Source: an uncultured delta proteobacterium
Lineage (GTDB): Bacteria > Desulfobacterota > WTBG01 > CAIYCZ01 > CAIRTM01
NCBI GenBank assembly: GCA_903881505.1
Contig: CAIRTM010000139.1
Coordinates: forward strand, 1-48,124
Length of the DNA stretch: 48,124 nt
Direction of reading: 5' to 3'
Shown: in pieces, positions 375 to 5,438 of the stretch
Layout of the letters: every line of letters starts with the position of its first letter
Numbering within the stretch: the stretch's first letter is position 1
Made by a program: the position numbers and the translations under genes
Notes under the pieces: generated by a model
Told to the model about the DNA's origin: nothing
What the model saw: only the letters and a program-made list of their open reading frames with translations
Database searches by the model: none

Positions 375-1304
375 TTAGACTGCCGCCCGTTTAATTTCGA
401 TCCGCTCGAGCTGCATGGTGCCGAGCCCCATGGCATGCGCCGCGGCAATGTGCTGTACCTGCTCCGGGGCCATTTTTTTGCCGTACCACTCGGCCACGCC
501 CACCGCAACGGCATCGACCGCGACCGGATCAGTCCCTGCAATGATCGTTTTGGGTTCGGTCACCAGGCCGGGGCCGGCCGGTCCACCGGTTGTGAGCGCG
601 CGTGAGGCGTCCACGACGGTCAGCGAAATTTTAACCGCAGAGGCGAGGTCCGCCAGCGCCTGGTTGATGTCGAAATCAGCATGGAAGGCCTTGCGGTTCA
701 AGACAATACCCATCAGGTTCTTCATGCCGAGGGTCACGCCCGTTGTGGTGTGCGATTTTGCGCAGGGCAGGTTGATGAATGTGTTGCACGTGAGCACATC
801 CTTCACCACGTCAACGCTGCGCAGGGCCTTCCCGTTGGCGATGGCCAGCTTCGTATAGAACTTCTCATGATTTGCCGCGTACACGTGCACATTCCTGAGG
901 CTGCTGCAGGCCTGCTGTATACCTGATATCTGCAGGCATTTTTCAGGCGGATGGATCGTGTGGTCGAGTACGAGCACTTCGCGGGCTCCGGCCGCAAGGC
1001 ACATGGCGGCAACTGCAGCCACAACCTCGGGGTGCGTATTGACTGCAGAGGCAATCGGAGAAGCCCAGGACATGTTGGGCTTGAGAACGACGCGGCTGTC
1101 CTTTTTTACAAACGCCTCCATGCCGCCCAGAAGCTCAACGGCCTTGCGGGTGGCGGCCGCACGTGCGCCGGTTACAGAAGCCACGGTTGCGGTCGGGGCT
1201 TCGGCTGCTACGGCGGCTGCGATGCGGGAAATGAGGGGTCCGGCTCCGGCGGCAAGGCCGCACGCAGCGCTTGTTTTAATGAATGTTCTCCGGGAAATGT
1301 GCAT
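375..1304 (-). CDS. DUF362 domain protein with Tat signal
   Basis: This 309-residue protein starts with a twin-arginine signal (SRRTFIKTS at residues 4-12, then an Ala/Gly-rich hydrophobic stretch), so it is probably exported folded. The body has the DUF362 pattern: LKPNMSWA, NTHPEVVAAVA, a CAKSHTTTGVTLGMKNLMG segment and a late GTDPVAVDAVAVG segment. DUF362 proteins often occur with iron-sulfur or redox proteins, but their reaction is not established. No ferredoxin-type cysteine cluster is visible in this copy. The start is supported by an AGGAGG ribosome site eight bases upstream. An inverted-repeat element lies directly upstream of the gene. Confidence 0.85.
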   Translation of the reverse strand: MHISRRTFIKTSAACGLAAGAGPLISRIAAAVAAEAPTATVASVTGARAAATRKAVELLGGMEAFVKKDSRVVLKPNMSWASPIASAVNTHPEVVAAVAAMCLAAGAREVLVLDHTIHPPEKCLQISGIQQACSSLRNVHVYAANHEKFYTKLAIANGKALRSVDVVKDVLTCNTFINLPCAKSHTTTGVTLGMKNLMGIVLNRKAFHADFDINQALADLASAVKISLTVVDASRALTTGGPAGPGLVTEPKTIIAGTDPVAVDAVAVGVAEWYGKKMAPEQVQHIAAAHAMGLGTMQLERIEIKRAAV

Positions 1305-1559: not shown

Positions 1560-2213
1560 TCAGCGGATGATAACTTTTTTGCGTCGTTTGATTTTTACTT
1601 TTTTCAGTCCGGGCCTCAGCTGCGAGCGGGGGCGGGGATCGATGTAGAGGTCGCTTCTGGTCCAGTCTCGCAGTGTCTGCTGTGAGGACTTAAGAAAGCA
1701 GCGGTCCTCATTGTTGCGGACATCGAGAATTGCATGGCGTAAAACAACAACCTCTGTTCCGTCGTTGAGCATGAGCGTGATTTCATAGCGGGAAAATGAA
1801 TGAATCACGCCCGTGAGCACTTCGCCTTCAAGCAGGGTGACCAGCAGCACATCCTGTGAGCGCATCAGGTGAAAGAGCGTTTTGTTTTTTACAAAATGCC
1901 GCTGCTTTACGGCAACAATCGGGGCGATCCGCCGAGCTTCTGCATCCGGGTCAATGCTGATCCGGGCCTGCACCGGTTGCGAGAATGCGGCCGGATAGAG
2001 CATTTTAATCCGGGTTTTCGGCAGTTCATGCCGGGCGCCGTCATCGGCGGTCACGGCAACGTCATAAACGCTGTTTTCCGCTATCGTGCCCTGCAGCGTG
2101 GCATGCCCGTGCAGGTGCAGGCAGTACGTCGCACCCGTGGCCGCGGCCTCTTCAAATGTCGAGCGCCGGTAGTTTTTCAGCAGGTAGTCGTTCAAGCCGG
2201 CCAGAAAGGCCAT
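1560..2213 (-). CDS. Protein with two Hfq/Sm-like domains
   Basis: This 217-residue protein appears to carry two Sm-like segments. The first (about 1-74) has an N-terminal helix, then CLHLHGHATLQGTIAENSVY and HELPKTRIKMLYP. The second (about 111-166) has a helix KTLFHLMRSQ, then VTLLEGEVLTGVIHSFSRYE and VVVLRHAILDV. Its LRHAI at 159-163 corresponds to the [Y/F]KHAI signature of Hfq Sm2. The tail (203-217) is very rich in Lys and Arg. Hfq is a hexameric RNA chaperone of one domain of about 75 residues, so two domains on one chain would suggest a trimer. That is inference. A strong GGAGGAGG site supports the start. The gene is the last of an apparent ahcY-plsY operon, 22 bases after plsY. Confidence 0.7.
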   Translation of the reverse strand: MAFLAGLNDYLLKNYRRSTFEEAAATGATYCLHLHGHATLQGTIAENSVYDVAVTADDGARHELPKTRIKMLYPAAFSQPVQARISIDPDAEARRIAPIVAVKQRHFVKNKTLFHLMRSQDVLLVTLLEGEVLTGVIHSFSRYEITLMLNDGTEVVVLRHAILDVRNNEDRCFLKSSQQTLRDWTRSDLYIDPRPRSQLRPGLKKVKIKRRKKVIIR

Positions 2214-2235: not shown

Positions 2236-2889
2236 TTATGATGCAGCCGTTTTTTTTGAACCGATCCGGTTCTCGGTTCCCAGCATCAGCCGCTCGATGT
2301 TGGCACGGTGTTTGAGAAACACAAACACGGCCATCAAAAAGCCCAGCGCTGTGACACTCAGCGCAACCGGCCGTATCAAAGCATCGACAGCCAGCAGCAC
2401 GAGCGGCAGCGCGAACGCGCTTGCAAGCGACGCCAGGGATACAAACCGCGAAATCGCGACAACGCCCGCAAACACAATCAGCAGGACCGGGATGACGATC
2501 GGCTCAAGCGCCAGCATGACGCCGCAGGCCGTGGCCACGCCTTTGCCGCCCCGGAACCTGAGATATACCGGAAAAAGATGTCCGAGAAAGGCGGCCAGGC
2601 CGCACACGGCAGCCGCAAATTGAACCTGCAGCCCGTCCCCTGCGCCCGCCAGCACGCCCGCGGCAATCACCGGTATGAAGCCCTTGAGCATGTCGCCCGC
2701 AAATGTGCAGGCCCCGAATTTTTTCCCCAGAAGCCGGGCCGCGTTCGTGGCCCCGATATTGCCGCTGCCGGCGGTGCGGATGTCCTGTTTGCCCAGCGCG
2801 GCGGCCAGCACCACGCCGGTCGGGATCGATCCCAGCAGATATGATCCGATCACCAGAAGCGGCAGTGTCATGTCCATAGCGGTGCCCAT
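2236..2889 (-). CDS. plsY: Acyl-phosphate:glycerol-3-phosphate acyltransferase PlsY
   Basis: PlsY transfers an acyl group from acyl-phosphate to glycerol-3-phosphate to make lysophosphatidic acid, the first step of phospholipid synthesis at the inner membrane. The 217-residue protein has the family motifs: GSIPTG at 20-25, GSGNIGATNA at 41-50 and FRGGKGVAT at 112-120. It has several hydrophobic membrane segments and a length near the family norm. An internal ATG four codons later (MDMTLP) is an alternative start. The gene begins 12 bases after the ahcY stop and precedes the Hfq-like gene, so the three are probably co-transcribed. Confidence 0.95.
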   Translation of the reverse strand: MGTAMDMTLPLLVIGSYLLGSIPTGVVLAAALGKQDIRTAGSGNIGATNAARLLGKKFGACTFAGDMLKGFIPVIAAGVLAGAGDGLQVQFAAAVCGLAAFLGHLFPVYLRFRGGKGVATACGVMLALEPIVIPVLLIVFAGVVAISRFVSLASLASAFALPLVLLAVDALIRPVALSVTALGFLMAVFVFLKHRANIERLMLGTENRIGSKKTAAS

Positions 2890-2901: not shown

Positions 2902-4335
2902 TTAATAGCGGTAGTGTTCGGGCTTGTACGGGCCTTCAACCGGCACGCCGATGTAGTCGGCTTGACGCTGCGAGAGCGTTGTCAGGCCCGCGCCGAGACG
3001 GCCCAGATGCAGGCGCGCAACCTCCTCGTCCAGCTTTTTGGGCAGCGTAAAGACTTTTATGCCATGATCATTCGTCGCAAGCTCGATCTGGGCCAGGCAC
3101 TGGTTGGTGAAACTTGAACTCATCACAAAGCTGGGGTGTCCGGTCGCACATCCCAGGTTCACAAGGCGGCCTTCGGCCAGCACGATGATGGAGCGGCCCG
3201 AAGGCAGGGTCCATTTGTCGACCTGCGGCTTGATGTTCGTCTTAATGCAGCCCGGCGTCTTTTCAAGATAGGACATGTCGATTTCACTGTCAAAGTGGCC
3301 GATATTGCAGACAATCGCCTCGTCCCGCATCGCTTCAAGATGCGCGCCCGTGATCACGTGGTAATTGCCGGTGCACGTCACGAACAGATCAGCCTGGCCG
3401 GCGACATCTTCCATGCGCTGTACCTCATAGCCCGACATGGCCGCCTGCAGGGCGCAGATGGGGTCGATTTCCGTGACGATAACGCGGGCGCCGTAGCTTC
3501 GCAGCGACTCGGCGCAGCCTTTGCCCACGTCGCCGTAGCCCAGCACCACACAGACTTTTCCGGCCAGCATGATGTCGGTTGCGCGCTTGATGCCGTCGGC
3601 AAGGGATTCGCGGCAGCCGTACAGGTTGTCGAATTTTGATTTTGTGACCGAATCATTGACATTAATGGCCGGGAACAGCAGCTCTCCCGAAACCATCATC
3701 TGGTAGAGGCGGTGCACGCCGGTGGTGGTTTCTTCCGACACCCCACGGACCTGCGCGGCGATTCCGGTCCACTTCTGCGGATTGCGCTTAAAGCCTTCGG
3801 CCAGCCGGTCCATTATGACGTGCATCTCATGATGCTCGAATTTCTGCTTAAGCAGGGCGGGGTCTTTTTCAACCTTGACGCCCTGGTGGATCATCAGGGT
3901 GGCGTCGCCGCCGTCGTCAACGATCAGGTTCGGCCCCGTGCCGTCGGGCCAGGTCAGGGCCTGCTCAGTGCACCACCAGTACTCTTCCAGGGTTTCACCC
4001 TTCCAGGCAAAGACTTTGGCCGTGCCTTTCCGGGCGATGGCAGCGGCGGCATGGTCCTGGGTGGAGAAAATATTGCAGGATGCCCAGCGGATATCTGCCC
4101 CGAGCGCGTGCAGGGTGTCGATCAGCATGGCCGTCTGGATGGTCATGTGCAGGCTGCCCATAACCTTCAGGCCCTTCAGGGGCTGCCCGGGACCGTATTT
4201 GGCGCGCACGGCCATGAGGCCCGGCATTTCGTTTTCCGCCAGCTGCATTTCCTTGAGCCCCCACTCCGCCAGCGACATATCGGCCACCTTGTGCGTCAGC
4301 GCAGGGTCAAGTTCCATGAAGACAGTTGTTGACAT
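2902..4335 (-). CDS. ahcY: Adenosylhomocysteinase (SAH hydrolase)
   Basis: The enzyme reversibly hydrolyses S-adenosylhomocysteine to adenosine and homocysteine with tightly bound NAD, relieving product inhibition of methyltransferases. The 477 residues show [10 protein letters not shown] (60-69), [14 protein letters not shown] (85-98), the NAD-binding loop [13 protein letters not shown] and the conserved terminal PEHYRY. I place the start at the ATG at 4335 (MSTTVF). It follows an AGGAG site at a normal distance and matches the usual N-terminus, and the open frame upstream runs into the promoter. A TTGACA/TATTAT promoter lies just upstream. The gene is first of an operon with plsY and the Hfq-like gene. 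Confidence 0.97.
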
Positions 4336-4368: not shown

Positions 4369-4398
4369 ATAATACCCTTGTGGGGGCAAACTTGTCAA
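4369..4398 (-). promoter_or_regulatory. Sigma-70 promoter of the ahcY operon
   Basis: On the minus strand a consensus -35 TTGACA (4393-4398) is separated by 18 bases from TATTAT (4369-4374), about 34 bases before the ahcY start. The predicted untranslated leader is short. I see no SAH or SAM riboswitch fold in it. Confidence 0.65.
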
Positions 4399-4670
4399 TT
4401 TGTTTTCAGAATGGCTTGCTTTTGGGAAGCTGCAATGCTACTTCTGCCAGGGTCCTTGCCACTGGCAGAATCGATATGCCTAACCTGAAGCTATGTTTTG
4501 TTTTTGCCATGGTTTTGTTCAAGGGCGTTTTCGTTGCGTACCCTGCCTGCAGGGTTGTTGGGGCTGTGCCGTCTGCTTTCCGCCGGCGCTGATTGCGGGA
4601 TTGCGAAGCCGCTCCCCCGCCACCCCTGCGTATCAGGCAGTCCGTGTGCTGCTGTGAGGTGAAGACGATC

Positions 4671-5438
4671 ATGATGGTCATTGTGGGCGCCTCAGAGATT
4701 GAGTTGCGAAGGGTACGGCGTCTGATCAGCGCGGAGCGCGTTGAAGTGCATGGCGGCAGGCAATTCTGCTTCGGGACCATGCGCGGCAGGGCTGTCTGCC
4801 TGGTCAGGGCCGGCGTGGGGCGCAAAAATGCCGCTGCGGCCGCCCGTGCGATCTGTGCCGATCTGAGGCCCGCCATGGTCATTGCTGCCGGGGCGGCCGG
4901 AGCGCTTGACCCCGCGCTCAGCTGCGGATCAGCCGTCGTCGTTGAACGCGTTCTCGGGGAAAACAGCACGGAGCTGATAGCCTGCCCGCCTGAATGGGCC
5001 GGCCGGGCGCTTGCAGCCCTGCATGCATCCGGCATGCAGGCGCAGGCCGGATCGTGCTGCCAAACCCGTACCTTCATCCACCGTTCATCTCAAAAGCAGG
5101 CCCTGCGGGCGAAGACGGGCGCGCATATTGTCGACATGGAAAGCTTCGCGTTCGCTGTTGAGTTCCGGCGCGCGGGCATGCCCTTTATCGACCTGCGTGT
5201 CGTTTCCGATTCCGCCCGCCGCGACACGGCCGACATGAAAATGCTTACCGGTCTGTGGCGCCGCTCCGGCCGCCCGGCCGTCGCGCTGCACCTGTGCCTG
5301 CGTCCGCGCGAGCTCGCGCGTGTACTGTTTTTTTATCGGGGAATGGGTGCTGCCGCAGAACGGATTGCCGATGCCCTGCTCGCCATTGTGCGTGCGAGTA
5401 TCGAACCTGTCGGAACATGCGGGCCTGCGGACGGTTAA
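4671..5438 (+). CDS. Nucleoside phosphorylase / MTA-SAH nucleosidase-like protein
   Basis: This 255-residue member of the PNP/UDP phosphorylase superfamily has a Gly-rich phosphate/ribose loop (AGVGRKNAA near 48-56 and AAGAAGALD at 72-80). It also has VDMESFAFA with the ribose-binding Met156-Glu157, and RVVSDSA (176-182) with the base-contacting Asp. The family cleaves N-glycosidic bonds of nucleosides such as methylthioadenosine or SAH. Hopanoid-associated HpnG proteins are another branch, and I cannot choose between them. It is divergent from ahcY, which fits an adenosyl-nucleoside role. A GAGGTG site precedes ATG 4671, and ATG 4674 is equally possible. About 335 bases separate it from ahcY; apart from the ahcY promoter they hold only small hairpins (for example TTCTGCCA/TGGCAGAA at 4442-4470). 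Confidence 0.7.
   Translation: MMVIVGASEIELRRVRRLISAERVEVHGGRQFCFGTMRGRAVCLVRAGVGRKNAAAAARAICADLRPAMVIAAGAAGALDPALSCGSAVVVERVLGENSTELIACPPEWAGRALAALHASGMQAQAGSCCQTRTFIHRSSQKQALRAKTGAHIVDMESFAFAVEFRRAGMPFIDLRVVSDSARRDTADMKMLTGLWRRSGRPAVALHLCLRPRELARVLFFYRGMGAAAERIADALLAIVRASIEPVGTCGPADG

Follow-up and report, generated by a model that had tools for sequence, protein, structure and literature searches.

A deltaproteobacterial protein family with two predicted Sm folds in one chain, one of them homologous to Hfq

RESULTS

A gene for a protein with two Hfq-like halves. Can a single polypeptide carry two Hfq-type domains, and could such a protein stand in for Hfq in a bacterium that lacks the usual form? 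The question is raised by a gene in a contig of 48,124 nucleotides from an uncultured delta proteobacterium (CAIRTM010000139.1; this whole stretch is referred to here as the window). A preliminary description of the locus had proposed an ahcY-plsY operon that includes a gene for a protein with two Hfq/Sm-like domains, an Sm2 signature in the second of them, and a strongly basic tail. The gene (positions 1560 to 2213, minus strand) is an open reading frame of 217 codons beginning with an ATG at 2213 that is preceded by GGAGG, and it encodes a protein of 217 amino acids (24.8 kDa, pI 9.8). Upstream on the same strand are plsY, encoding glycerol-3-phosphate acyltransferase (2236 to 2889, minus strand; PF02660, E value of 6.8e-54; TIGR00023 above its cut-off), and ahcY, encoding adenosylhomocysteinase (2902 to 4335, minus strand; TIGR00936, 599.7 bits). 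The gaps are 12 bp between ahcY and plsY and 22 bp between plsY and the tandem gene; the proposed ahcY-plsY context is real. An ATG at about position 4335 is a more likely start for ahcY than the listed TTG at 4398, and a sigma-70-like promoter site (4398 to 4369, 11 of 12 matches) lies directly before it.

Two other genes of this region recur in congener G001. The tandem gene is adjoined on the same strand by a gene for a DUF362 protein with a TAT signal (window positions 375 to 1304, minus strand), and this is also the case in the congener. A phosphorylase-superfamily gene (PF01048; window positions 4593 to 5438, plus strand) is oriented divergently to ahcY in the window and is also close to ahcY in G001; it might belong to the same SAM-recycling pathway as ahcY.

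The orthologue of the tandem gene in G001 encodes a protein 76% identical to that of the window, and the gene order is identical. Comparison of the two genes gave a dN of 0.13 and a dS of 0.55 (dN/dS of ∼0.24), with values of 0.03 and 0.54, respectively, for residues 176 to 217. The low dN, lowest at the basic end, indicates purifying selection on the gene and especially on that end. The basic tail anticipated in the preliminary description comprises residues 199 to 217 (LRPGLKKVKIKRRKKVIIR; positions 1563 to 1619, minus strand), which include 10 lysines or arginines and no aspartate or glutamate, are predicted to be disordered (pLDDT below 50), and are identical in the congener. When the neighborhoods of homologues were compared, the ahcY-plsY context was confined to the genus of the window, and so is the tail. 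Both therefore say little about the function of the family, and we set the operon aside as a functional clue.

Both halves are predicted to adopt the Sm fold. We modeled the whole protein with AlphaFold2, without templates and from an alignment of 15 sequences. The model (mean pLDDT of 87.5, pTM of 0.82) shows the same order of elements twice, an N-terminal helix followed by five strands, which is the order that characterizes the Sm fold of Hfq. In the N-terminal domain, the helix spans residues 19 to 26 and the strands span residues 29 to 34, 38 to 47, 51 to 56, 61 to 65, and 69 to 74; in the C-terminal domain, the helix spans residues 110 to 119 and the strands span residues 122 to 127, 131 to 140, 144 to 149, 154 to 158, and 162 to 167. 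Between the domains lies a linker of ∼30 residues (residues 75 to 109) with two helices. Modeling of the N half alone (88 amino acids) returned identical elements with a pLDDT of 87.1. When this half was compared with the PDB by Foldseek, Hfq chains made up 49 of the 50 matches listed, with a best E value of 2.5e-4 and, among those listed, TM-scores by target of up to 0.87. The best PDB matches of the whole model were also Hfq, at an rmsd of ∼1 Å. Neither half was thus modeled as anything other than an Sm fold, as the two-domain proposal requires, and two such folds in one chain are predicted at high confidence.

The C half is homologous to Hfq, and the N half is strongly diverged. The C-terminal Sm fold (residues 109 to 166; positions 1716 to 1889, minus strand) matched the Hfq families PF17209 (E value of 8.5e-4, 19.3 bits, cut-off of 27) and TIGR02383 (E value of 2.3e-4, 21 bits, cut-off of 61.7) over residues 111 to 163, in both cases under the cut-off. 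PF17209 was matched by 8 of 15 homologues, and no family member among those checked by genome search reached the Hfq cut-offs. Compared profile to profile with the canonical Hfq proteins of the same phylum, the C half gave an E value of 5e-8 and a probability of 93% over 59 columns. A C-half profile built from 34 homologues scored 42.1 against Hfq, and the best of 150 column shuffles scored 23.7. On the strength of this E value and of a score above those of all 150 shuffles, the C half is homologous to Hfq, and chance is excluded. The expected Sm2-type signature is present as LRHAI at residues 158 to 162.

The N-terminal Sm fold (residues 12 to 77; positions 1983 to 2180, minus strand) had no Hfq or Sm match in searches of Pfam and NCBIfam. 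Its profile aligns in the Sm register over its full length, at a P value of ∼0.01 that is not significant; 9 of 150 column shuffles reached its score against the Hfq profile, and 1 of 150 reached its score against the C-half profile. Profile searches thus confirmed the proposed Hfq relationship for the C half but not for the N half. Since these profiles are weak, it is the structure prediction that decides in favor of an Sm fold there. For the same reason, we do not claim on sequence alone that a duplication gave rise to the two domains.

Proximal-pocket residues are retained mainly in the C domain. Conservation was assessed over 34 homologues, with E. coli Hfq numbering transferred through profile alignments. 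In the C domain, all 34 have K, N, and K at Hfq positions 8 to 10, G29, G34, F39, R at 41, R at 56, and H57, and 33 of 34 have Y at position 42. In the window protein, these residues are K109-N110-K111, G130, G135, F140, R142, Y143, R159, and H160. The Sm2 region reads LRH[ASG], with RH in 34/34, where the Hfq motif is [YL][KR]HA. Most of these positions belong to Hfq's proximal, U-binding pocket. Compared with Hfq, the pocket has K in place of Q8, a replaced D9, R in place of Q41, and R in place of K56, and the distal-face positions are also altered (T at 25, V or I at 31, and D at 61). In the N domain, K at Hfq position 56 (K66 of the window protein) and an aromatic residue at position 42 are found in 34/34, position 57 is T, V, L, or I in 33 of 34 so that H57 is lost, and positions 8, 9, and 41 are variable. 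Judged from these residues, the C domain appears to have an Hfq-like pocket and the N domain only traces of one. A further conserved stretch, at about residues 165 to 192, follows the C domain and is common to the family.

The family occurs in part of one phylum, and no canonical Hfq was found in its carriers. We collected 34 distinct full-length homologues, all from the same phylum and all with both domains. Searching 395 genomes of the phylum with a profile built from the first three members gave matches in 18; these reflect the tandem family in 13 and canonical Hfq in 5. The family occurs in 31 of 85 genomes of the class of G336 and in 3 of 17 genomes of the window's own class; within the window's taxonomic family, it is confined to the window's genus. 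Scanning named genomes added Delta proteobacterium NaphS2 and four metagenome bins with the title Deltaproteobacteria. A search of viral contigs gave no relative, and a phage origin was set aside.

The preliminary description had raised the possibility that this is the organism's only Hfq-like protein. The genome of the window is 96.8% complete, and its sole match to PF17209 or Hfq_1 is the tandem gene; searches with these two families found no canonical hfq elsewhere in it, which supports that suggestion. CsrA (PF02599) had no match in this genome at an E value of 0.01. In none of the 36 genomes carrying the tandem family does a canonical Hfq exceed the cut-off. In the sample of 395 genomes, 96 have canonical Hfq, 13 have the tandem form, none have both, and 286 have neither. 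The overlap of 0 compares with ∼3 expected, in a sample of related genomes that includes one class with no canonical Hfq altogether; in view of both, mutual exclusion of the two forms is only suggested. The absence of canonical Hfq in carriers fits replacement by the tandem form and is weak evidence for it, as genomes of that one class have no canonical Hfq, both those with the tandem form and those without it.

A response regulator gene precedes the tandem gene in one lineage. For 23 of the 34 homologues, a gene lying no more than 140 bp upstream on the same strand encodes a strongly conserved single-domain response regulator (PF00072) of ∼166 amino acids with a tail of 45 amino acids (KRFGPDWKEKDRFFKEFEE). 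Examples are found at L018:3453-3953, L041:4032-4532, L042:5850-6350, L043:4480-4980, L017:3350-3859, and L047:5270-5872. No close copy of this regulator was found in the window's genome, so the link is not general; it is specific to one lineage and strong there. Two G147 genomes have many paralogues of the regulator elsewhere. The neighbors vary by lineage: they are ahcY and plsY in the window, and G015 has a gene for a protein containing DHHA1. Close to the tandem gene of G015 there is also a gene of homocysteine biosynthesis (PF01837; L040:6361-7653). AhcY makes homocysteine, and the occurrence of homocysteine-related neighbors in both G015 and the window is probably a coincidence.

DISCUSSION

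What might a protein with two Sm folds and one well-kept pocket do? We think it probable that it is a diverged Hfq-type RNA chaperone, three chains of which would form a six-domain ring with unequal pockets; the ring and the RNA binding are what we infer. Three chains are the simplest assembly given two Sm folds per chain, and they would close into a ring in which N and C domains alternate. The pockets between adjacent domains would then be of two kinds, alternating around the proximal face, where U-rich RNA such as the 3′ ends of sRNAs may be held by the C-domain residues together with the N-domain lysine. In the genus of the window, the basic tail could add a looser RNA contact. Binding of A-rich RNA on the distal face in the manner of E. 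coli is unlikely, since the distal-face residues are replaced. The tandem protein would help RNAs to pair or to be turned over, standing in for the missing canonical Hfq. This reading draws on the predicted Sm folds, the homology of the C half, its invariant pocket, the constant presence of both domains, the absence of canonical Hfq from carriers, the basic character of the protein with its strongly conserved tail, and the precedent of a tandem Hfq in Zymomonas mobilis that has a stress phenotype when disrupted (PMC2877685). Counted against it are the substitutions in the C-domain pocket, the loss of H57 from the N domain, scores under the Hfq cut-offs in all members checked by genome search, and the 286 of 395 genomes with neither form, in which Hfq is evidently dispensable.

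One alternative concerns the N domain. The C domains alone could form a homohexameric ring, with the N domains outside it or in a second layer and binding protein partners rather than RNA. The lack of most pocket residues in the N domain and the long helical linker would suit such an arrangement. However, the N domain is predicted to be a complete Sm fold with both edge strands present, its lysine and aromatic residue at pocket positions are invariant in 34/34, and six outer N domains would need a new interface, for which we saw nothing; we regard this arrangement as unlikely. There is also a weak hint that the C half is not an Sm domain at all, and is instead an S1/OB RNA-binding domain (PF00575) as in NusA: 3 of 15 members had a weak Pfam S1 match (best E value of 0.003), and the window protein matched the S1 stretch of NusA with an E value of 0.09. 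Hfq is matched by more of the same 15 members and with a better best E value, helix and strands follow the Sm order in the model, which superimposes closely on Hfq chains, and no S1 domain is among the 50 PDB matches listed. We consider this identity highly improbable and rejected it.

The neighborhoods raise a different possibility, namely, that the protein keeps the Sm fold and is no longer an sRNA chaperone, acting, for example, as a protein-binding or mRNA-specific regulator tied to signaling. The 23 homologues encoded behind one conserved response regulator, the replaced distal-face residues, and the variation of neighbors between lineages would all fit. Yet a close copy of that regulator is missing from the window's genome, and the KNK, FxR, and RH residues show no variation, the pattern to be expected if an RNA site has been maintained, which leaves this possibility quite unlikely in our judgment. 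Returning to the chaperone, we can propose, with more doubt than confidence, a specific history for it: a double Hfq in a single chain that evolved separately, one of whose Sm domains has turned into structural filler, so that six equal pockets give way to pockets alternating with threefold symmetry, and which in one class is coupled to a dedicated response regulator.

If the protein is a chaperone as proposed, deltaproteobacterial lineages scored as free of Hfq would have a hidden one, and surveys of sRNA regulation would be incomplete. A ring that alternates strictly between two kinds of Sm domain would offer a natural way to ask how many of the six Hfq pockets are needed and, by analogy only, would resemble a step from homomeric Hfq toward the hetero-oligomeric LSm rings of eukaryotes. 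The response regulator next to the gene in one class offers a testable link to signaling; were the coupling of the filler-domain history real, two-component signaling would be linked directly to an RNA chaperone.

How does the family compare with known systems? Canonical Hfq (PF17209, TIGR02383) has one Sm domain per chain, forms a hexameric ring, and binds sRNAs and mRNAs to promote their pairing. The present proteins are predicted to share its Sm fold with an N-terminal helix, and their C domain keeps G29, G34, F39, and H57 as well as a basic or aromatic residue at positions 42 and 56. They differ from it in having two domains per chain, in the replacement of Q8, D9, Q41, and the distal-face residues, in an N domain without H57, and in a stretch of their own after the C domain. 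PF21979 (Hfq_1) and the cyanobacterial NF047718 are likewise diverged Sm/Hfq folds and match the C half weakly (14.6 and 13.1 bits, with cut-offs of 27 and 52, respectively), but both are single-domain models of 61 and 64 positions. The C half also scores 13.1 bits against a 176-position Hfq model, NCBIfam NF010691 (PRK14091), whose cut-off is 270; our guess is that this model represents the tandem form of Sphingomonadales.

That tandem form is the closest precedent. It is known from Z. mobilis (ZMO0347), whose protein shares 60% identity with E. coli Hfq in a BlastP comparison, and from six other Sphingomonadales; the study describing it had already raised the question of whether a hexameric ring can be built from three chains (PMC2877685). 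We found no description of the present family in the open-licence papers searched; a one-chain double Hfq is already known, and the present family is a separate and apparently undescribed one. The two share the arrangement of two Sm domains per chain. The present family differs in belonging to another bacterial group, in remaining under all Hfq cut-offs, and in an N domain that is unrecognizable by sequence, and it likely arose independently of the Sphingomonadales form.
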